From: Bacteroidota bacterium
GTDB taxonomy: Bacteria; Bacteroidota; Bacteroidia; B-17B0; Aurantibacillaceae
DNA: 64,000 bases
Reading direction: 5' to 3'
Assembly (NCBI GenBank): GCA_013298715.1
Contig: JAAFIQ010000003.1
Coordinates: 1 to 64,000, forward strand
The notes under the pieces were generated by a model. That model had not been told where the DNA came from. It made no database searches and saw only the letters and a program-made list of their open reading frames with translations. A program made the translations under genes and the position numbers. Below, piece after piece: positions 28,663 through 39,591 of this stretch (position 1 is its first letter; every line of letters starts with the position of its first letter).

Positions 28663-29076
28663 ATGAAAATTTTTTTTATCATTTGTTTTTTATTTATTTC
28701 CCTCATCGGAGTAGCTCAAACTGTACAAAACGGAAATTACTCCACAGTAGGTTACATTAAAGATGACGGTACCGTGCAAAACCAAAATTATTCAACTATT
28801 GGTTACATTAAAAAAGATGGTACTGTTCAAAACCAAAATTATTCAACAATTGGTTATCTTAAAAATGATGGAACAGTTCAAAATCAAAATTACTCTACTG
28901 TTGGTTATATAAAAAATGACGGAACAGTTCAAAACCAAAACTATTCAACAATTGGCTACATTAAAAACGACGGTACTTTGCAAAATCAAAATTACAGCAC
29001 TGTTGGTTACGCTAAAAATATCAATAAGCAATGGGCAGCAGCAGCAGCTTTCTTTTTCTTTTTCAATTTAAAATAA
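28663..29076 (+). CDS. Secreted 17-residue tandem-repeat protein, beta-flower-like
   Basis: 137 residues. After a signal peptide (MKIFFIICFLFISLIGVAQ) there are six near-identical repeats of 17 residues, consensus VQNQNYSTIGYIKNDGT, with STVGY/STIGY alternating. The end is AKNINKQWAAAAAFFFFFN. The pattern of short GxI/GY-x-(4-6)-DGT repeats and the WAA...FFFF tail resemble the four-fold beta-flower proteins of Bacteroidota, which form small closed beta structures; this assignment is from memory of the family. The copies differ at synonymous positions in the DNA, so the repeat is not freshly duplicated and appears selected. It is 17 bp upstream of the HPPD gene. Function unknown. Confidence 0.75.
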   Translation: MKIFFIICFLFISLIGVAQTVQNGNYSTVGYIKDDGTVQNQNYSTIGYIKKDGTVQNQNYSTIGYLKNDGTVQNQNYSTVGYIKNDGTVQNQNYSTIGYIKNDGTLQNQNYSTVGYAKNINKQWAAAAAFFFFFNLK

Positions 29077-29093
29077 TATAAAAATCAAAACCC

Positions 29094-30257
29094 ATGTCAA
29101 CTCAACCAATTAAAAATGTAGAATACGGCTTAGAAAAAATTTTTGATGGAGCTCAAGATTTTTTACCGTTGTTAGGAACAGATTACGTAGAGTTTTATGT
29201 TGGTAACGCCAAACAAAGCGCCCACTACTATAAAACCGCTTTTGGTTTTCAAAGTTATGCATACGCAGGACTAGAGACCGGATTAAGAGACAGAACAAGT
29301 TATGTTTTAAAACAAGATAAAATCAAACTCGTATTAACTACTGCATTAACCAGCGATTCAGTTATTGGTGAGCATGTAAAAAAACATGGCGATGGTGTTA
29401 AAGTTATTGCACTTTGGGTAGATGATGCAACAAAATCTTACGAAGAAACGACAAAACGAGGGGCCAAATCTTTTATGAAACCTACTACAGAGAAAGATGA
29501 ACATGGAGAAGTAGTGCGAAGTGGTATTTATACTTATGGCGAAACAGTACATTTATTTGTTGAAAGAAAAAATTACAAAGGCACATTTTTACCCGGCTAC
29601 AAACCTTGGGTAAGCGATTATAACCCTACGCCAGTAGGATTAAAGTTTATAGACCACATGGTGGGTAATGTTGGTTGGAATGAAATGAACCCAACTGTAA
29701 AGTGGTACGAAGAAGTGATGGGTTTTGTAAACTTTTTAACCTTTGATGATAAACAAATTACAACTGAATACTCTGCTTTAATGAGCAAAGTAATGAGCAA
29801 TGGCAATGGTAGAATAAAATTCCCAATTAACGAACCAGCCGAAGGAAAGAAAAAATCGCAAATCGAAGAATATATTGATTTTTACGAAGGCGCAGGTGTG
29901 CAGCATTTGGCCTTGGCTACAGATGATATTATAAAAACAGTTTCTGAATTAAAAGCGCGCGGTGTAGAATTTTTACCACCACCACCACAAGCTTATTACG
30001 ATGATATTCCACGCAGATTAGGTAGCCACATGAGCATTATGAAAGAGGATATAAAACAATTACAAAGTCTTTCCATTTTAGTAGATGCTGATGAAGAGGG
30101 TTATCTTTTACAAATTTTTACAAAACCAGTAGAAGACCGCCCAACTTTATTTTACGAAATTATACAACGCATGGGCGCCAAAGGCTTTGGTGCTGGCAAC
30201 TTTAAAGCCTTGTTTGAAAGTATTGAAAGAGAGCAAGCTTTAAGAGGGACGTTGTAG
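29094..30257 (+). CDS. hppD: 4-hydroxyphenylpyruvate dioxygenase
   Basis: 387 residues with two vicinal-oxygen-chelate domains. Metal ligands are recognisable in the C-terminal domain: His in FIDHMVGNVG, His in GVQHLALATDDI, and Glu in the LLQIFTKPVEDRPTLFYEII stretch. The end RMGAKGFGAGNFKALFESIE is the conserved C-terminal gate helix. It turns 4-hydroxyphenylpyruvate into homogentisate in tyrosine catabolism, using iron and oxygen. Homogentisate dioxygenase is not in the window. Length is as expected for bacterial HPPD. Confidence 0.97.
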   Translation: MSTQPIKNVEYGLEKIFDGAQDFLPLLGTDYVEFYVGNAKQSAHYYKTAFGFQSYAYAGLETGLRDRTSYVLKQDKIKLVLTTALTSDSVIGEHVKKHGDGVKVIALWVDDATKSYEETTKRGAKSFMKPTTEKDEHGEVVRSGIYTYGETVHLFVERKNYKGTFLPGYKPWVSDYNPTPVGLKFIDHMVGNVGWNEMNPTVKWYEEVMGFVNFLTFDDKQITTEYSALMSKVMSNGNGRIKFPINEPAEGKKKSQIEEYIDFYEGAGVQHLALATDDIIKTVSELKARGVEFLPPPPQAYYDDIPRRLGSHMSIMKEDIKQLQSLSILVDADEEGYLLQIFTKPVEDRPTLFYEIIQRMGAKGFGAGNFKALFESIEREQALRGTL

Positions 30258-30515: not shown

Positions 30516-31844
30516 ATGAATTTTAGCGAACTTAACCTAAGCAAACAACTTCTAAATGCCTTAACAGACTTAGGCTTTAGCGAAGCAACACCCATTCAAC
30601 AAAATTCATTTAACCAAATTATGAGTGGTCGTGATGTAGTAGGAATTGCTCAAACAGGTACTGGTAAAACCTTTGCCTACTTATTGCCCATATTAAGACA
30701 GTTAACTTTCTCTTACCAACGCAACCCACGTGTAATAATTTTAGTACCAACGCGTGAATTAGTAGTGCAAGTTATTGAATCAATTAATAAACTTAGCAAA
30801 TATCAAACAGTACGTGTAGCAGGTATTTACGGCGGTGCAAACATAAACACACAGCGTAATTTAATTTTAGATGGCTTAGATATTTTAGTGGCCACACCTG
30901 GTCGAATGATTGATATGTTGATAGATAGAGTTGTAGTTGTAAATCAACTTCAAAAATTAGTAATTGATGAAGTAGATGAAATGCTGAGTCTTGGTTTTAG
31001 AACGCAATTAAATCGAATACTAGAAATGATGCCTGTTAAGCGACAAACGCTTTTGTTTTCGGCTACTTTAGATGAAGAAATTGAAAATTTAATTAACAAC
31101 TATTTTACTGAACCTATTTATATTGAAACCACGCAGCGCGGAAAAACAGTTGCAAAAATTACGCAAAGCGCTTATGCTGTTCCTAATTTTTATACAAAAG
31201 TAAATTTGTTGGAGTACTTACTTACAGATAAAAAAACACTAAAAAAAGTATTGGTGTTTTGTAAAAACAAAACGGAAGCAGATGCCGTTTACAAAGAATT
31301 AGCACCTGTTTTTGAAGAAGAAATTTCTATAATTCACTCTAACAAATCGCAACCGCAACGTTTTGAAGCTATTGCACGTTTTTCAAAAAAAGATTTACGC
31401 ATTTTAATTGCAACAGATGTAATTGCGCGTGGCATAGATTTTGAGAACGTTAGTCATGTTATAAATTTTAACTTGCCTTTACAGACAGAAGATTACGTGC
31501 ATCGTGTAGGAAGAACAGGCAGATCGGGCAAATCAGGTGAAGCGATTTCATTAGTTACAGAAAAAGAAAAAATATTGTTCGAAAAAATTGAACAATTTAC
31601 AAAACAAAAAATCAAACTACTTCAAATTCCTGAAGAGGTAGAAATAACTGACGTTTTAACCAAAGAAGAAAGGCCAGTTTATAAAGATAAAAGTTTAAAA
31701 AAGCTCCCGAAATTTGTTCCTAAAACAGGCGCTTTCCACGAGAAAAAAGCAAAAAATAAAAAGAAACATTTAGGCGGAAAACGCAAACAAGAAACGCTGA
31801 AACGAAAGTACGAAGCCCAAATTAAGTTGAGAAGCAAAAAATGA
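30516..31844 (+). CDS. DEAD-box RNA helicase
   Basis: 442 residues. Motifs in order: Q motif (GFSEATPIQQNSF), I (AQTGTGKT), Ia (PTRELV), Ib (ATPGR), II (DEVD in place of DEAD), III (SAT), IV/V (ATDVIARGIDF) and VI (HRVGRTGRSG). A lysine-rich tail (residues about 395-442: KKAKNKKKHLGGKRKQETLKRK) probably binds RNA. RhlE/DeaD-type helicases remodel RNA during ribosome assembly or cold stress. The gene stands alone after a 258-bp gap in which I see no other feature. Confidence 0.95.
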   Translation: MNFSELNLSKQLLNALTDLGFSEATPIQQNSFNQIMSGRDVVGIAQTGTGKTFAYLLPILRQLTFSYQRNPRVIILVPTRELVVQVIESINKLSKYQTVRVAGIYGGANINTQRNLILDGLDILVATPGRMIDMLIDRVVVVNQLQKLVIDEVDEMLSLGFRTQLNRILEMMPVKRQTLLFSATLDEEIENLINNYFTEPIYIETTQRGKTVAKITQSAYAVPNFYTKVNLLEYLLTDKKTLKKVLVFCKNKTEADAVYKELAPVFEEEISIIHSNKSQPQRFEAIARFSKKDLRILIATDVIARGIDFENVSHVINFNLPLQTEDYVHRVGRTGRSGKSGEAISLVTEKEKILFEKIEQFTKQKIKLLQIPEEVEITDVLTKEERPVYKDKSLKKLPKFVPKTGAFHEKKAKNKKKHLGGKRKQETLKRKYEAQIKLRSKK

Positions 31845-31917
31845 GTTTCTTAAAATAGAGACTGCTATTTGTTTAATTGCGTAATTAATATTAATTTTGT
31901 GACAAGTTCTTTATTAT

Positions 31918-32093
31918 ACTTATTTAGAAAAGCAGAGGGATACGCCCTGTGAAGCTTTACCAACCCTTATAATTAAGTTAAAAATTTTTAGTTTAAAATT
32001 TCAAAGAAATTCATCTTTTAGATTTTAACTTGTAGTTTTTAGCTTTCGAAAAGAAGGTGGGAATTCGTTCCGATTTTATCGGAAAAAATAAGT
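31918..32093 (+). promoter_or_regulatory. SAM-I (S-box) riboswitch aptamer
   Basis: P1 is formed by acttattt (31918-31925) with aaataagt (32086-32093). Between them are the S-box core segments: agagggatacgccctgtgaa (31934-31953; consensus GAGGGA..GCCC..UGAA), then gctttaccaacc (consensus GCAACC with one change), an extended P3 with aagttaaaa / ttttaactt arms, gaaggtgggaattcg (consensus AAGGUGC.AAUUCC), and a P4 hairpin ttccga-tttta-tcggaa (32068-32084). The distal 7-nt agtcaga (32091-32097) overlaps P1 and can instead pair with tctgact (32139-32145) in the terminator arm, giving a mutually exclusive antiterminator. Ligand-bound RNA should terminate. metH lies downstream in the same operon, consistent with SAM control. 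The cobalamin class was considered and fits worse. Confidence 0.85.
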
Positions 32094-32131
32094 CAGACAC
32101 ATTAGTAAAATTAAACATTAACAAATATGCT

Positions 32132-32167
32132 AATCCCTTCTGACTAAAAAACAGAAGGGATTTTTTT
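32132..32167 (+). terminator. Riboswitch-controlled intrinsic terminator
   Basis: An 11-bp perfect stem (aatcccttctg / cagaagggatt) is followed by a run of T up to 32167. The next base begins the ATG of the AlbA_2 gene. The left arm contains the tctgact that the aptamer tail can capture. Confidence 0.9.
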
Positions 32168-33493
32168 ATGGTAAAAAAGGAAAATCAAAATATTGAATTT
32201 AAAGAATCTTGGTCAGATGATTATTTAAAGTGGGTTGCTGGCTTTTGTAATGGACTTGGTGGTAAAATCTACATTGGTATTGATGATAATGGAAACTATG
32301 TGGGTTTAAAAAACAAAGCGCAAAAACTGTTAGAAGATATTCCAAATAAGTTGGTACAGCATCTAGGTGTTGTTTGTGAAGTTAATCTAAAACATAAAAA
32401 TAAAATAGAATATTTAGAAATAAAAGTTCCAAAATATACTGTACCTATTTCTTACAATGGCAAGTATTACTTTAGAAGCGGCGCTACTAAACAAGAACTA
32501 AAAGGTAAGGCACTTGAACAGTTTTTGCTTAAAAAATCAGGTAAAACCTGGGATATGATGCCCGAAAATTTAGCATCGTTAAAAGATATTGATACAAAAG
32601 CTATTGCCCGTTTTAAAAAATTAGCGTCGAATAGCTTGAGATTAAAAAGTATTGCACAAGAAAGAAATAATTTAGCTGTATTAAACAACTTAAATTTATT
32701 AGATGGCAAAAAACTTAAACGAGCTGCGGTTTTATTATTTGCAAAAGATCCTCAAAAGTTTTTTATTGGCTCTTCTCTTAAAATTGGGAAGTTTGGGAAT
32801 TCAGATAACGATTTAATTTTTCAAGACGAAGTTTCTGGTAATCTTATAGAAATTACTGAGCGTGCAATAGAATTGCTTGATAAGAAATATTTCCCTTCTT
32901 TAATAAGTTACCAAGGCATTTATAGAAAAGAAGAGTGGCCTTACCCATACGAGGCTATACGCGAAGCTATTTTAAATGCCATTGTTCATCGAGATTACAG
33001 CGGCGATACAACATTAATAAGTATTTACAACGATAAAATTGTTTTTTGGAATGATGGTAAACTACACGAAGATATTTCGTTAGAAGATTTGAAAACAAAG
33101 CATCCTTCTCGCCCCAATAATCCAAAAATAGCCGAAGTATTTTATAAAGCCGGATTAATAGAAGCTTGGGGAAGGGGTACATTAAATATTATTCAGTTAT
33201 GTAAAAAAGAAGCAAATAAAGAACCTTACTTCGAGTCGATAAGTGGAGGAACACAGCTAACCATATATAGTAAAGTTAGCGCAATTAAAAAAGACGAAAA
33301 ATTAAATGCACGACAAATTAATACACTCAGCTACATAAAGGAGCATGGAGAAATTAATAATTCAACATATCAAATAATAAATAAGACAAACGAAAAAACA
33401 GCCTATAGAGATTTAAGCGAACTAGTATCACTCAATTTCTTAGTAAAACTGGGTCAAACGAAACAATCTACAATTTATAAATTAAAAAAATAA
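32168..33493 (+). CDS. AlbA_2 / RecG-like ATP-binding putative regulator (COG2865 type)
   Basis: 441 residues. The N-terminal AlbA_2 (Schlafen-type) nucleic-acid-binding domain (about 8-115) has IEFKESW, GFCNGLGGKIYIGIDDNG and YYFRSGATKQ. A central region leads to a GHKL-like ATPase segment (about 250-340) with AIREAILNAIVHRDYSG, the N-box-like helix, and GLIEAWGRGTLNI. A winged helix (about 375-441) ends the protein. These proteins are usually called transcriptional regulators or ATP-dependent helicase-like; their roles are poorly known, and some belong to accessory islands. The ATG abuts the T-run of the riboswitch terminator. It stands between a SAM riboswitch and metH, an unusual place. 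The stop codon is preceded by a heptameric A run. Confidence 0.9.
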   Translation: MVKKENQNIEFKESWSDDYLKWVAGFCNGLGGKIYIGIDDNGNYVGLKNKAQKLLEDIPNKLVQHLGVVCEVNLKHKNKIEYLEIKVPKYTVPISYNGKYYFRSGATKQELKGKALEQFLLKKSGKTWDMMPENLASLKDIDTKAIARFKKLASNSLRLKSIAQERNNLAVLNNLNLLDGKKLKRAAVLLFAKDPQKFFIGSSLKIGKFGNSDNDLIFQDEVSGNLIEITERAIELLDKKYFPSLISYQGIYRKEEWPYPYEAIREAILNAIVHRDYSGDTTLISIYNDKIVFWNDGKLHEDISLEDLKTKHPSRPNNPKIAEVFYKAGLIEAWGRGTLNIIQLCKKEANKEPYFESISGGTQLTIYSKVSAIKKDEKLNARQINTLSYIKEHGEINNSTYQIINKTNEKTAYRDLSELVSLNFLVKLGQTKQSTIYKLKK

Positions 33494-33681
33494 TGAAAAC
33501 TTCATCGGACATTTCATCGGACATTTCATCGGACATTTCATCGGACATTTCATCGGACATTTCATCGGACATTTTTAAAATAATATTTCTCTATAACCCT
33601 TTAAAATCAAGTCTTTCAGTGAAAATTTTATCGGACATTTTTAAGTTAAAATCATCGGACATTTCATCGGACAAAAATTAA
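33493..33681 (+). CDS. Short SSDI-repeat ORF, possible frameshifted tail of the AlbA_2 protein
   Basis: 62 codons starting at an ATG that shares one base with the previous stop (TAATG). The product begins with six copies of SSDI encoded by perfect 12-bp units, then FKIIFLYNPLKSSLSVKILSDIFKL and two more SSD units. Runs of a four-residue repeat are, from general knowledge, common beside winged-helix ends of COG2865-type proteins in Bacteroidota, so this may be a displaced C-terminus of the AlbA_2 protein. It is in the -1 frame relative to that gene and could be read by slippage at 33484-33490, by reinitiation, or not at all. metH begins 3 bp after its stop. Confidence 0.5.
   Translation: MKTSSDISSDISSDISSDISSDISSDIFKIIFLYNPLKSSLSVKILSDIFKLKSSDISSDKN
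33502..33573 (+). repeat. Six perfect 12-bp tandem repeats (tcatcggacatt)
   Basis: The unit tcatcggacatt is repeated six times without change, and partial copies recur near 33631 and 33652-33676. Perfect identity suggests recent expansion by slippage; copy number may vary between strains. The unit is a multiple of three, so changes keep the frame. Confidence 0.9.
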
Positions 33682-33684
33682 ATT

Positions 33685-36600
33685 ATGAGTAACATAAATA
33701 CAATACAACAAGAATTAGAAAAAAGAGTATTAGTAATTGATGGGGCAATGGGCTCTATGATTCAGCAATACAAATTAACTGAAAAAGATTTTAGAGGGAA
33801 ACGTTTTGCCGACTGGCACAAGGATTTACAAGGTAATAACGACTTGCTATCCATTACGCAACCGCATATTATTAAAACTATTCATAAAGAATATTTAAAA
33901 GCGGGTGCCGATATTATTGAAACCAATACGTTTAGCGATACTTCTATTGCTATGGCTGATTACGATATGCAAGAGTTTGTATATGAACTCAATTTCGAAT
34001 CAGCTAAAATAGCGAAAGAAGCGATTACTGAGTTTAAAACAGAATTCCCTGAATTTGCTTCTATTCCAAAATTTGTTGCTGGAGCAATTGGACCAACTAA
34101 CCGCACCTTATCCTTATCTCCCAATGTAAACGACCCTGGTTATAGAGCTATTACATTTGATGAATTAGTAGAAGCTTATACCGAGCAAGTGCGTGGCTTA
34201 ATTGATGGTGGTGCTGATTTATTATTAATCGAAACAATTTTTGATACGCTAAATGCTAAAGCGGCTTTATTCGCTATTCAAAATTACTGCGAAAAAATAA
34301 ATAAAAAAATGCCCGTAATGGTTTCGGGAACTATTACTGATGCAAGTGGTAGAACCCTTTCGGGACAAACAACCGAAGCGTTTTTAAATTCTGTTTCGCA
34401 CGTAGAGTTATTAAGCGTAGGCTTAAATTGCGCGCTAGGAGCGAAAGATATGCGCCCATACTTAGAGGAGTTATCTAATAAAGCTCCGTTTTATGTTAGT
34501 GCTTACCCAAATGCCGGTTTGCCAAATCAGTTTGGTGAGTATGATCAGGATGCGCATGAAATGGGACATCAAATAGAAGATTTTTTAAAAGCAGGGTTTT
34601 TAAATATTGTTGGTGGATGTTGCGGAACAACTCCTTCACATATTAAACGCATTGCCGAGTTAGCAAAGGATGCAAAGCCTCGTAAAAAACCTCAACCTAA
34701 TACCTTGATGCACTTAAGCGGATTAGAGCCATACACGCTCACGCCTGAAAGCAATTTTTTAAATGTAGGTGAACGCACAAATGTTACTGGTTCTAAAAAG
34801 TTTTTACATTTAATTAAAGAAGGAAATTTTGAAGAAGCTTTATCTATTGCCCGCGAGCAAGTAGAAGGCGGCGCACAAGTAATTGATGTTAACATGGATG
34901 AAGGGATGTTAGATAGCGAACAGGCAATGACAACCTTTTTGAATTTAATTGCATCCGAACCAGATATTTCTCGTGTACCTATTATGATTGACTCAAGCAA
35001 ATGGAGTGTAATTGAAGCGGGATTAAAATGTGTACAAGGGAAAGCCATCGTTAATTCTATTTCATTAAAAGAGGGTGAAGAAAAATTTATTGAACAAGCT
35101 AAAAAAATAAAACAATATGGTGCGGCTGTTATTGTTATGGCGTTTGACGAAGTTGGACAAGCAGATACATTAGAGCGAAGAAAAGAAATTTGTAAACGTG
35201 CGTATGATGTATTGGTTGATAAAGTTCATTTCCCAGCACAAGATATTATTTTCGATCCCAATATTTTTCCAGTAGCAACGGGAATGGAGGAGCATCGTTT
35301 AAATGCGCTTGACTTTTTCAACTCAACAAAATGGATAAAAGAAAATTTACCTTATGCTAAAGTAAGCGGTGGTGTAAGTAATGTGTCGTTTTCGTTTAGA
35401 GGAAATGATCATGTACGCGAGGCAATACACTCTGCGTTTTTATTCCATGCTGTAAAACATGGTATGGATATGGGTATTGTAAATCCTTCGCAGTTAGTGG
35501 TGTATGACGATATTGATAAAACATTGCTAGAATTAGTAGAAGATGTTTTATTAAATCGTAGAGATGATGCTACAGAACGTTTAGTAGAGCATGCCGAATC
35601 ATTAAAAGGTGTTACAAAAGAGAAAACCGAAAAAGATGAGGCTTGGCGCAAAGGTACAGTAGAAGAGCGTTTAAGCTATGCTTTAGTAAAAGGAATTGTT
35701 GAACACATTGATGTTGATACCGAAGAGGCTCGTCAAAAATTAGGAAGACCCTTGCACGTTATTGAAGGTCCTTTAATGGATGGAATGAATGTAGTGGGCG
35801 ATTTATTTGGAAGCGGAAAAATGTTTTTACCTCAAGTTGTAAAAAGTGCACGTGTAATGAAAAAAGCAGTGGCGTATTTAGAACCGTTTTTATTAAAAGA
35901 AAAAGAAGATAATGCCAAAGCAGGAATTGTTGGCGATGGCAGAACCAACGCTGGTAAAATATTGATGGCAACGGTTAAAGGCGATGTACACGATATTGGA
36001 AAAAATATTGTAGGCGTTGTATTAGCTTGTAATAATTATGAAATAGTTGATTTAGGTGTAATGGTTTCTTGCGATAAAATTTTAGAAGAAGCTAAAAAAC
36101 ACAATGTTGATGTTATTGGATTAAGTGGATTAATTACACCTTCGTTAGATGAAATGGTTCATGTGGCAAAAGAAATGGAGCGATTAAATTTTAAAATTCC
36201 GTTAATAATTGGTGGTGCTACAACATCTAAAGTACATACAGCGGTTAAGATTGCTCAAAATTATTCAGGACCTGTTATTCATGTTAACGATGCTAGTAAA
36301 TCTGTTCCTGTTGCTAGTAGTTTAATTTCAAACGAATTGCGTGATGCGTTTATGGCTGAAATTAGTAAAGATTATGAGCGTGTACGTGAACAAAATAAAA
36401 ACGCACAATCTCAAAATAAATTAATTTCGTTGGCAGAAGCTAGAGCAAATAAATTCCCAATTGATTGGAGTAAAACAGAAATTACTAAACCAAATTTTAT
36501 TGGCAACAAAGTATTTGATAATTACGATTTAAAAGAAATTGCTGAATACATTGATTGGACACCGTTTTTTATTTCTTGGGAAATGAAAGGTTCGTATCCA

Positions 36601-37416
36601 AAAATTTTAACAGACCCAGCCCGTGGAGCAGAAGCCACTAAGTTATTTAATGATGCACAAGGCATGTTAAATAAAATAATTTCCGAAAAATGGTTGCAAG
36701 CAAAAGCGGTGATAGGTGTTTATCCTGCAAATACAGTAAACGATGATGATACCGATGTGTATGATGAAAAAGGAAATGTTATTGCAACATTTTATTCATT
36801 ACGTCAACAAAGTAAAAAACCTGCTGGTCAATACAACATTGCGTTAAGTGATTTCATAAAACCAAATCAAGCGAGCCCTGAGGCTCTCGAAGGGCGAGAA
36901 GCCCCCGATTATATTGGTTCCTTCGCTTTAACCACAGGCATAGGCATTGATGAGCACGTGGCTCGTTTCGAAAAAGAACACGATGATTATAGTGCTATCA
37001 TGCTAAAAGCCTTGGCAGACAGATTAGCCGAAGCCTTTGCCGAGTTAATGCACAAAAAAGTTCGTACAGAAATTTGGGGTTATGCCAAAAATGAAAATCT
37101 GAAAAATGAAGATTTAATCAAGGAAGAGTATGCGGGTATTCGTCCTGCACCAGGCTACCCAGCGCAACCCGATCATTTAGAAAAACTAACTATTTGGAAA
37201 TTATTAGATGTAGAAAAAAATACGGGTATTACTTTAACTGATAGTTTAGCAATGGTTCCTACTGCGGCTGTAAGTGGCTTGTATATTGCGCATCCACAAT
37301 CTCATTATTTTGGTATTGGAAAAATTAATAAAGAGCAAGTGGAAGATTACGCTAAACGTAAAGGAGAACCATTTGATAAAATTGAAAAATGGTTGGGGCC
37401 AGTGTTAAGTTATTAG
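33685..37416 (+). CDS. metH: Cobalamin-dependent methionine synthase
   Basis: 1243 residues with all four modules. The homocysteine module (1-330) has the zinc cysteines ([18 protein letters not shown]). The pterin module (about 345-610) has [14 protein letters not shown] and VINVNMDEG-like sequence. The cobalamin cap and Rossmann module (about 650-880) has [10 protein letters not shown] with the cobalt-ligand His769. The activation module (about 905-1235) ends with [12 protein letters not shown]. It remethylates homocysteine to methionine using methyltetrahydrofolate. Regulation is probably by the SAM-I riboswitch 1.5 kb upstream, through the AlbA_2 gene. In the activation module an in-frame palindromic insertion (36871-36907) adds a stretch that usual MetH lacks. 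Confidence 0.97.
36871..36907 (+). repeat. Palindromic repeat inserted in frame in metH
   Basis: gagccctgaggctctcgaagggc holds nested inverted repeats (gagcc/ggctc and gccct/agggc). Its look is that of the widespread small palindrome ccctgagcctgtcgaaggg. It encodes [11 protein letters not shown] between FIKPNQ and [12 protein letters not shown], where MetH proteins normally run almost directly from FI.PK to DYIG. It is GC-richer than the surrounding gene. Confidence 0.6.
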
Positions 37417-38104: not shown

Positions 38105-38782
38105 TTGGTATTAGGGCAAGCGGTAAATGGTTGGGAACAATCATTTGATAAATATACTGAGATTGATTCTGGTTTTGTGAATGAGGCTTTCAAAACATCA
38201 AATAGGCAGGCAATACTTGATATAGGCCTTAATCCAATTGATATTGTGAATGTTCTTTGGTCTAATTCAAGTTATTTAAATCAGACTGAAGCGGTTAAAG
38301 AATGTTTTAAAGCACAGTTTACGTATCAATATTTTTATTCGCGCTCATTATTTTGGAATGTGATTTACAAAAGTATGTGCATGGTAGATTTTGGTGGCGA
38401 CCTAAACAATTGTGGTTGGTCAAAAAAAATGGTTTGGAGTAATTTATACAAAATTGCTCCCGACGGCAAAAATCCTAACCTCGATGAACAAATTTGGCAA
38501 AGAGAACAGGCGATTAAATTAATTAAATTAGAGTTAGATTTGTTAAGGCCAAAATTTTGTTTAGTACTCACAAACGATTCATGGTGGAAACCTTTTAGAG
38601 ATGAACTGAAAACGGAACAATTAAAAACTCTCTTTGAATCAGAATTTATAGAATCTTTAGAAAGTTATAATCAAGGACAAACCAAAATTATTGTTACCAA
38701 ACGACCATTTATTGGCAATACAAATAAGATGAGCGACGAAATAAGAAAAATTATCGAAGAATGTCAAGGAGAGAATCGTTAA
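38105..38782 (+). CDS. Unknown conserved-looking protein, probably with a 5' frameshift
   Basis: The frame is open from 38003 but contains no ATG before residue ~90; the nearest start is TTG at 38105, in the middle of what looks like a beta-strand (EVKYLVLGQAVNGW). An ATG at 37968 or 37971, overlapping the end of the previous gene, starts MMNKFKEIYDVEYLSLLL in another frame that stops at about 38040. Joining it to SFKDKLLNSDLKYVNFYPSFG at about 38010-38030 restores a natural N-terminus and needs one base. The protein has a LGQAVNGW start and a LLRPKFCLVLTNDSWW segment that faintly recall uracil-DNA-glycosylase-like folds; this is not firm. It overlaps the WYL gene by 22 bp. Confidence 0.6.
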   Translation: MVLGQAVNGWEQSFDKYTEIDSGFVNEAFKTSNRQAILDIGLNPIDIVNVLWSNSSYLNQTEAVKECFKAQFTYQYFYSRSLFWNVIYKSMCMVDFGGDLNNCGWSKKMVWSNLYKIAPDGKNPNLDEQIWQREQAIKLIKLELDLLRPKFCLVLTNDSWWKPFRDELKTEQLKTLFESEFIESLESYNQGQTKIIVTKRPFIGNTNKMSDEIRKIIEECQGENR

Positions 38783-39591
38783 TTCGATATAGATTAATTA
38801 TAAGTTTTTTGAAAAGAAAACCTTCCTCGTTCGAAGAAATCCTTAATCATTTAGAGGATAAGTCGACTTTTTATGATTACAAGCTTATTATTTCAAAACG
38901 TACGTTTAAAAGAGATTTGTTGGAAATAGCATCACTTTTTGATATTGAAATCGAGTACGATTTTAGACGGAAAGTTTATTGTTTAACTGAGGGAACTATT
39001 TTAAACAAGAGTCAAAGCTTTTTGCTTGACGAACTTTTGTTATTAAATTTAAATCCATCGATAAAAAGCAAAATTTGTTTTGATGAGAGATTCTCACACA
39101 CAGATGACTTGGAAAAATATTTACCAATAATAAATTCAAAGAAACAAATAAAACTAACTTACAAAGCATTTAACTCTAAAAAGGCAAAGATTTATTTTGT
39201 AAATGTTTATGGTTTAAAACAAGCATGTGGCTTTTGGTACTTAATTGCTTCAGATGCCAATGATGAGCTAATTGTAAAATCTTTTGGAATAGACAGAATT
39301 GTCGAATTTGAAGTTACTAAATTTAAAGCAAAGCGCAGTTCAAATTTTTCGATTTCTGAATATTACAAACATTGTTTTGGGGTTATTAATTTTGCTGATC
39401 AATTACCTGAACGACTTAAAATTAAATTTTGCGGGTATCACGTAAATTATATCAAAGCACATCCATTTCACAATTCGCAAAAAATTATCTCCGAGAAGAA
39501 AGACGAAATTGTTATTGAGCTTTTTATTAAAAAAACAATTGATTTGGAGATGGAATTGAAAAAGTATGCTGGTTATTATGAAATTTACTAA
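38761..39591 (+). CDS. WYL-domain-type transcriptional regulator
   Basis: 276 residues. The N-terminal winged helix (about 5-75) includes ISKRTFKRDLLEIASLFDIEIEYD, the usual YafY/WYL opening. The WYL-like domain (about 125-200) has KKQIKLTYKAFNSKKAK and VYGLKQACGFWYLIASDAND, followed by FGIDRIVEFEVT. A C-terminal beta-rich segment (about 215-276) is the WCX-like extension. WYL proteins bind nucleic-acid-derived ligands and often regulate accessory or defence loci (BrxR and CapW are examples). It overlaps the upstream gene by 22 bp, which suggests they are co-translated. Confidence 0.82.
   Translation: MSRRESLIRYRLIISFLKRKPSSFEEILNHLEDKSTFYDYKLIISKRTFKRDLLEIASLFDIEIEYDFRRKVYCLTEGTILNKSQSFLLDELLLLNLNPSIKSKICFDERFSHTDDLEKYLPIINSKKQIKLTYKAFNSKKAKIYFVNVYGLKQACGFWYLIASDANDELIVKSFGIDRIVEFEVTKFKAKRSSNFSISEYYKHCFGVINFADQLPERLKIKFCGYHVNYIKAHPFHNSQKIISEKKDEIVIELFIKKTIDLEMELKKYAGYYEIY

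Follow-up and report, generated by a model that had tools for sequence, protein, structure and literature searches.

A Schlafen-type gene with a downstream repeat array between a SAM-I riboswitch and metH in a Bacteroidota genome

How did a gene unrelated to methionine synthesis come to lie between a riboswitch and its target, and what is the DNA that follows it? This question is raised by the stretch analyzed here (the window), i.e. the 64,000 nucleotides at positions 1 to 64,000 of contig JAAFIQ010000003.1 from a Bacteroidota bacterium (GenBank assembly GCA_013298715.1, in the following G000). In it, an S-adenosylmethionine (SAM)-I riboswitch is followed by a gene with AlbA_2 (Schlafen), GHKL ATPase and winged-helix domains, and only then by metH. 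Comparison with related genomes supports an insertion of the AlbA_2 gene between leader and metH, and across its homologues the unit of a repeat array behind the gene was found to fit the predicted recognition helix of the protein. G and L numbers below denote genomes and loci, respectively.

The leader comprises three features:

31869..31899, + strand: promoter-like match (TTG, spacer, TAnnTTTG) upstream of the leader, from a pattern search
31917..32094, + strand: SAM-I riboswitch aptamer (RF00162), 53.4 bits, above the gathering score
32132..32167, + strand: intrinsic terminator hairpin and T-run of the riboswitch, from folding against shuffles and an arm search

The riboswitch is a real SAM-I element with a terminator directly downstream. 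By scanning the leader with the Rfam covariance models, we found RF00162 at 31917-32094 (+) with a gathering score of 44.4 bits clearly exceeded (E 1.7e-9), in agreement with the well-formed S-box aptamer reported in a preliminary description of this DNA, and this was the only match above gathering thresholds in the whole window. The leader folds far better than shuffled sequences (z -5.1). The terminator named in that description was likewise recovered as a strong hairpin, with arms AATCCCTTCTG and CAGAAGGGATT and a T-run, at -15.3 kcal/mol (z -5.1 against shuffles), and the AlbA_2 start codon (32168) does directly follow the T-run, which ends at 32167. As for the competing antiterminator of that description, which is a candidate structure, the AGAAGGTG of the aptamer, which could pair with the terminator CCTTCT, is present in 23 out of 24 leaders examined. 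A simple arm finder identified a fully paired hairpin ahead of a T-run in 21 of the 24 leaders. The TTG-spacer-TAnnTTTG pattern, which we take to be the Bacteroidota-type promoter consensus, was searched for on the + strand of 31700-34000. Its sole full match is the one upstream of the leader, a looser form occurs also at 32793 inside the AlbA_2 gene, and the stretch before metH matches neither form; a separate strong metH promoter, raised earlier as a possible objection, was thus not found directly before metH by this search. A second SAM-I riboswitch is situated elsewhere in the genome (G000:C34:20204-20331; L001, L101).

By employing the same covariance model, RF00162 was found in 56 of the 60 genomes searched, own included. 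The metH locus was recovered in 34 out of 36 genus relatives, G023 and G026 having no metH in the stretches fetched. In 28 of the 34, the riboswitch match lies 40-211 nt from metH, and the absence of a gene there is deduced from the length of the gap, as open reading frames (ORFs) were listed for gaps above 260 nt only. An AlbA_2 gene occupies this position in a single relative, G036, with 77% identity to the window gene, so that the order is not one shared by all relatives. Another five (G003, G008, G021, G029 and G032; loci L065, L068, L079, L082 and L097) carry a methyltransferase-like ORF of 252-263 aa in the same slot, and the one ORF tested, that of G032 (L097), matched Methyltransf_11. 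With AlbA_2 and methyltransferase-like genes in the same slot, the region between terminator and metH has taken up genes more than once.

A metH tree, i.e. a midpoint-rooted tree of this one gene with 33 tips (own plus 32 relatives; G013 was left out, G022 was dropped for short coverage, and support values are not shown), put G031 and G002 beside G000, and G027 and G014 beside G036. None of these four neighbors has the insert, and since the two AlbA_2 carriers stand apart, an insertion is likelier than an ancestral order. When joined, the window flanks could be aligned with the uninterrupted loci of G031 and G002, which puts the insert after the terminator T-run and ahead of the metH start. 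Neither a target-site duplication nor terminal inverted repeats were noticed in this joined-flank alignment, in which no systematic search for them was made. Together, the comparisons support the earlier suggestion that the AlbA_2 module was inserted between leader and metH. The same-place copies of G000 and G036, with their common array layout, may reflect two insertions or a transfer between lineages. As a separate observation, metH gave matches in two pieces, about 430-450 nt apart, in L085 and L086 (G004 and G005), from either an insertion or a divergent stretch inside metH.

The inserted gene and its parts are as follows:

32168..33493, + strand: AlbA_2 (Schlafen)-GHKL ATPase-winged-helix gene, 441 aa, frame open throughout (ORF, Pfam, AlphaFold, Foldseek)
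32180..32500, + strand: SLFN_AlbA_2 domain, residues 5-111 (Pfam E 4.9e-14)
33011..33262, + strand: HATPase_c_4 (GHKL-type ATPase), residues 282-365 (Pfam E 9.6e-17; GHKL kinases by Foldseek)
33308..33484, + strand: C-terminal winged helix, with helices 381-393, 398-405 and 409-421 and wing strands 425-428 and 436-439 (AlphaFold, alignment)
33392..33430, + strand: predicted recognition helix, residues 409-421 (AlphaFold; helix-unit comparison)

The first gene of the transcript is therefore of the type previously described, as indicated by the two Pfam domains and the predicted winged helix at 381-439. The AlphaFold model has a mean pLDDT (predicted local distance difference test) of 87, and its Foldseek matches include SLFN11/12/14/5 as well as the GHKL proteins HK853 and PDK; by fold and domains together, DIP2311 (3lmm), human Schlafens and GHKL kinases are nearest. 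The C-terminal winged helix gave a profile match to that of 8cil. Among the positions at least 90% conserved in 36 sequences are E5, E10 and D40, presumably the counterpart of the SLFN RNase acidic triad. Pfam identified only SLFN_AlbA_2 and HATPase_c_4 in the window protein, and no transposase domain.

Between this gene and metH, the following were located:

33493..33681, + strand: 62-aa ORF spanning the arrays, unlikely to be a gene (mostly repeat, without a Pfam domain)
33501..33574, + strand: array 1, six ATCGGACA sites at a 12-bp step (TTCATCGGACAT x 6.2; TRF, site search)
33630..33673, + strand: array 2, three further ATCGGACA sites (site search, G036 alignment)
33685..37416, + strand: metH, B12-dependent methionine synthase, full length (ORF, Pfam)

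Array 1 begins 8 bp past the AlbA_2 stop codon, and was called by Tandem Repeats Finder (TRF) as a 12-bp-period repeat with 100% matches, while the last site of array 2 ends 11 bp short of the metH start. All nine copies of the ATCGGACA 8-mer in the 64 kb fall within 33504-33673, and the window holds none in the reverse sense. Allowing up to 2 mismatches, the two-unit pattern occurs among the 60 genomes only at the window locus and the matching G036 locus. Alignment of these two loci showed that the eight array sites they have in common (arrays 1 and 2) are identical, and that the spacers between them differ. The preliminary description had correctly noted that metH begins 3 bp after the ORF at 33493-33681, but we do not accept this ORF as a gene, given that it had no Pfam match at E 0.001 and consists mostly of the 12-bp tandem repeat; the stretch is probably a DNA site array. 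In its interpretation, that description is supported as to the insertion, and overlooked that the DNA behind the AlbA_2 gene is such an array, of a kind common to most homologues.

A profile from six aligned homologues yielded the homologue set, namely the best 80 of 475 confirmed, with 42-54% identity; it includes the near-duplicates L126/L127, L153/L157 and L170/L182, and L118 is the same as G012. In 70 of these 80, TRF detected a tandem array with a period of 9-14 bp (mostly 11) within stop-30 to stop+270. In the narrower interval of stop-30 to stop+120, 47 of the 80 reached a TRF score of at least 50 and 68 a score of at least 36, compared to none and 11, respectively, of 336 other ORFs of at least 200 aa in the same loci. 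Shuffled sequences, preserving single-base composition only, gave 4/400 at the lower and 0/400 at the higher score. Out of 86 loci, 69 had at least three sites by a site finder that was confined to stop-25 to stop+80 and to steps of 9, 11 and 12, biased to G+C-rich cores and blind to other steps and places; the step was 11 bp in 166 cases, 9 bp in 69 and 12 bp in 11. The step order was decisive in 34 of the 69 loci: 26 read 9-11-11 (canonical 11-9-11-11) and eight the mirror 11-11-9, the unit being likewise reversed in seven of these eight (the exception is L159). L124, L131 and L187 also deviate from this scheme of step order and unit sense. The first site is situated between -14 and +12 from the stop end in 65 out of 68 loci with such sites, and second arrays were found at +70 to +420 in 9/76 loci, a count that has no matched control.

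Out of 27 loci examined from a winged-helix profile search, 18 are Fic loci with a related winged helix (L243-L258, L260 and L261), and none of them has a 3' array of at least three copies, two 2-copy TRF calls with periods 14 and 10 being all that was found. By comparison, seven of eight AlbA_2 genes or winged-helix orphans from the search have an array at the stop codon (2 to 5 copies; L232 was already counted). The pseudogene L241 has an array at +100, and the fragment L259 has none. Among distant AlbA_2-HATPase_c_4 proteins, TRF found a period of 8-14 in or behind the gene in 20 out of 31, some of these being weak or far from the winged helix, and without a matched control. In several distant members, in-frame 12-bp repeats lie about 190-310 nt before the stop.

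Some repeats in distant members were recorded separately. Within the coding regions of L010, L011, L016, L022, L028, L029, L032 and L200-L203, 12-bp repeats run in frame (KDVE, GGTI, TPQV, DQVS, KVTD and others), and an 11-bp repeat in L029 is translated in changing frames. L030, L031, L241 and L152:4124-4364 contain winged-helix fragments or pseudogenes that lack an AlbA_2 body and have short repeats of their own behind them.

In most homologues, the array is linked to the 3' end of the gene. Over 53 loci, core sites upstream of the genes numbered 1 in 26.8 kb and were thus not commoner than the background of 34 in 459 kb elsewhere; the density of array sites is high by construction, making upstream versus elsewhere the informative comparison. 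On this ground a promoter operator, i.e. autoregulation at the promoter, was rejected. We also rejected arrays acting mainly as RNA, because both orientations occur. No paper on 3' arrays of such genes was found by searches of the openly licensed literature of PubMed Central (PMC).

The units vary between loci, and comparison with the encoded proteins showed that they fit the predicted recognition helix of the C-terminal winged helix, not the AlbA_2-ATPase body. Examples are SKATATRD or SKPTATRD with TTGGCTC, GKTTATEE with TTGGCC, SRNTA with TTGCAC(A), RRTATRD with TTGCGCC, ERTASRD with AACGCC, SDRTSSRD with TGGCGG and TDRTARRD with TGTCCGAT. The window protein and L187 share KTA(Y/F)RD and an identical unit, which stands in the opposite sense relative to the gene. 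The stretch whose identity tracks the unit corresponds to residues 408-415 of the window protein, i.e. the start of the third helix (409-421) in the AlphaFold model. With the remainder of the protein and of its winged helix controlled for, unit similarity correlates with the identity of this stretch at a partial Mantel r of 0.27 over 69 loci, a value reached by 0/1000 permutations (largest 0.15), and for the AlbA_2-ATPase body there is no correlation (rho -0.08). When loci with similar winged helices were merged, which left 46, and L121 was dropped for a mis-called core, units match at 8.25 of 12 positions with the helix-nearest locus, compared to 6.43 with the body-nearest and 6.16 as the overall mean; 0/500 permutations reached 8.25. 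This fit points to a binding function under selection.

Winged helix and array also move together. The proteins of L164 and L167 are 89% identical as a whole, with 96% in the body and 33% in the winged helix, and their units are TGTCCGAAG and GCCCGCA, respectively. Their DNA is near-identical up to the winged-helix start and then diverges, and further downstream L167 resumes with an L164-type tail and array. This pair offers direct proof, at the level of sequence, that the predicted winged helix plus array are exchanged as one cassette. Other such pairs, with identities for body and winged helix, are L152/L170 (92% and 49%), L144/L188 (88% and 39%) and L131/L138 (93% and 52%; L131 has an interrupted frame). 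Winged-helix 3' remnants were found within 200 nt downstream in 5/76 loci, compared to 2/76 upstream and 2/52 further downstream, a count that is weak when taken alone.

Neighboring genes gave no common context. No neighbor family within three genes was common to more than three loci, and a constant operon partner was therefore rejected, as was one dominant defense partner, since PADLOC families matched at most 3 out of 132 neighbors each (neighbor proteins above 900 aa and the neighbors of L118, L126, L157 and L182 were left out). The upstream gene is co-directional in 62/74 loci, compared to 168/230 controls (p 0.06), and the downstream gene is on the opposite strand in 29/74. Plasmids and phages carry homologues as well, with 19 plasmid records matching at E <= 1e-20 and 37 phage records at E <= 1e-5. 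A second copy of upstream sequence follows the insert in 10/86 loci and is likewise seen in 5/128 controls, the clearest cases being L114 and G080, where the copy is the 3' part of a gene; such duplications hint at arrival by recombination anchored in the upstream gene. Coordinates of the duplicated 3' part of the upstream gene, before and behind an AlbA_2-type gene, were recorded in L114 (143-1102 and 2756-3094) and L231 (3397-4389 and 5972-6364). Elsewhere in the window, a small gene of 51-bp repeats (Pfam Bflower_2) lies at 28663-29076, just before a gene at 29094, and downstream of metH, at 38105-39591, a gene with a sub-threshold uracil-DNA-glycosylase match overlaps a WYL-domain gene.

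To account for the locus, we propose that a solitary mobile AlbA_2-GHKL-winged helix-turn-helix (wHTH) gene landed between the SAM-I leader and metH. Judging by this position alone, the riboswitch promoter would drive transcription of the gene, and SAM should turn it off. The C-terminal winged helix would bind the direct-repeat array directly behind its own stop codon, and the bound protein, lying across the stop codon, would be a barrier to RNA polymerase where its own gene ends and thereby give mRNAs without a stop codon. Such a roadblock would damp the output of the gene independently of the promoter it has landed behind, and in the window it would also throttle read-through into metH. The free protein would be the effector, perhaps an anti-phage RNase, as has been proposed for Schlafen-GHKL-wHTH proteins. 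From the position of the sites at the stop codon, in either orientation, their lack of enrichment upstream and the absence of a constant partner, the key event would seem to be binding of the protein to the 3' end of the gene that encodes it; both the binding and its effect we infer from sequence comparison. We consider the explanation as a whole to have about an even chance of being correct, and the 3' roadblock, taken as a step by itself, to be tentative and rather doubtful. For the family at large, a polymorphic DNA-specificity system, in which a mobile Schlafen effector has a 3' array for self-control at its stop codon under whatever promoter, or as a latch that opens on damage to host DNA, helix and array are exchanged as a cassette and displaced cassettes are left behind, falls somewhat short of an even chance.

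Several observations weigh against the proposed explanation. The window array has 12-bp steps, and so does that of G036, unlike the canonical 11-9-11-11. Ten of the 80 homologues lack an array by TRF, including L185, L189 and L193 with different-looking C-terminal domains. Unit similarity also tracks the winged helix outside the recognition helix (partial 0.20 with the latter controlled for), meaning that the recognition helix is not its sole correlate. No PADLOC family was matched by more than three of the 132 neighbors, though 409 families have some match. Co-directional upstream genes are no closer than in controls, with gaps below 120 nt in 38/74 as against 125/230, and the downstream gene is co-directional in only 45/74 loci, compared to 187/241 controls (p 0.006). 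The genes thus tend to end operons, which makes the mid-operon case of the window less typical.

Not all rival explanations exclude the favored one. The chief among them is a DNA latch, where the RNase would be inactive on its own array and freed once the array is lost through phage degradation or takeover of the chromosome, the array being in effect a DNA antitoxin. Arrays in both orientations and sites not enriched upstream are as expected of a DNA anchor, and the Schlafen-type fold found by Foldseek agrees with the anti-phage role of some Schlafen-linked systems, as stated in PMC12839542. Then again, the latch assumes an inactive bound protein, and the in-frame arrays inside the coding region of several distant members are in a place that a latch would not need; we regard the latch as unlikely. 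Less probable still is a recruited metH regulator, with the array as an operator through which the AlbA_2 protein controls metH atop the riboswitch. Array 2 does lie immediately ahead of metH, with sites conserved in G036, but no match to the Bacteroidota-type promoter pattern searched for precedes metH directly, and with neighbor families common to at most three loci and many downstream genes on the other strand, arrays go with the gene itself.

Equally improbable, in our view, is a selfish passenger, i.e. a gene that recombination spreads together with its array, with the latter as a recombination or insertion site and no benefit to the host operon. It would fit the lack of constant neighbors, the duplicated 3' part of the upstream gene behind the insert in L114 and G080, and cassette exchange that leaves remnants; the duplications are few relative to controls, the window protein has no transposase domain, and the fit between unit and helix speaks for a selected binding function. 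That the operon order is ancestral and was lost in most relatives is very unlikely, and we rejected it. Two carriers in one genus do share place and array layout, yet they are far apart in the metH tree, each with nearer relatives that lack the gene, and 28 out of 34 relatives have no room for it. As for chance minisatellites without function, tandem repeats are no rarity in themselves (TRF gave 18 rows of them for the window), but the strict-score contrast between homologues and other ORFs, units that track the recognition helix and the Fic loci without such arrays leave this explanation with hardly any credibility.

A large and poorly understood family of Schlafen-GHKL-wHTH proteins is hereby linked to a definite putative DNA target, which can be read next to most of the genes examined. 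Binding, specificity and function thereby become directly testable in cultured bacteria, and a natural data set emerges in which dozens of recognition helices are each matched to a DNA unit. The window itself adds an example of a foreign gene settling between a riboswitch and the target of that riboswitch.

Several known systems resemble parts of this arrangement. A SAM-I riboswitch before metH, with RF00162 above cut-off and a terminator, is what the window has in common with the 28 genus relatives where the leader lies directly before metH, and it differs from them by the gene in between. A 2026 paper (PMC12839542) described fusions of Schlafen RNases with a minimal histidine kinase and a wHTH near BREX loci, and like the window protein they combine SLFN_AlbA_2, a GHKL ATPase and a C-terminal winged helix; in the portion of that paper available to us no array is mentioned, and unlike these fusions the window gene, with putative RNase activity, is situated in a metabolic operon. 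TrlG of Photorhabdus shares AlbA_2 plus HATPase_c_4 and a patchy distribution, but is linked to temperature restriction and belongs to a putative three-gene operon, and the accessible part of its description mentions no array (PMC7554251). Fic proteins (the SoFic model of PADLOC, PDB 8cil) have a related C-terminal winged helix, and differ by the lack of a 3' array of at least three copies in all 18 loci examined. Plasmid iterons are direct repeats spaced at roughly one turn of the helix, close to the initiator gene. The arrays are similar in having several direct repeats at such a distance near the gene of their presumed binder, and dissimilar in their position at the stop codon, next to a gene in whose product, in the window, no replication domain was found. 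Rhs and CdiA proteins, lastly, are known for displaced ("orphan") C-terminal tips, and the likeness extends to a constant body, an exchanged C-terminal cassette and displaced old tails downstream, as in L164/L167; in the AlbA_2 family, the exchanged tip is paired with a DNA array instead of an immunity gene, and this array follows the stop codon in most loci.

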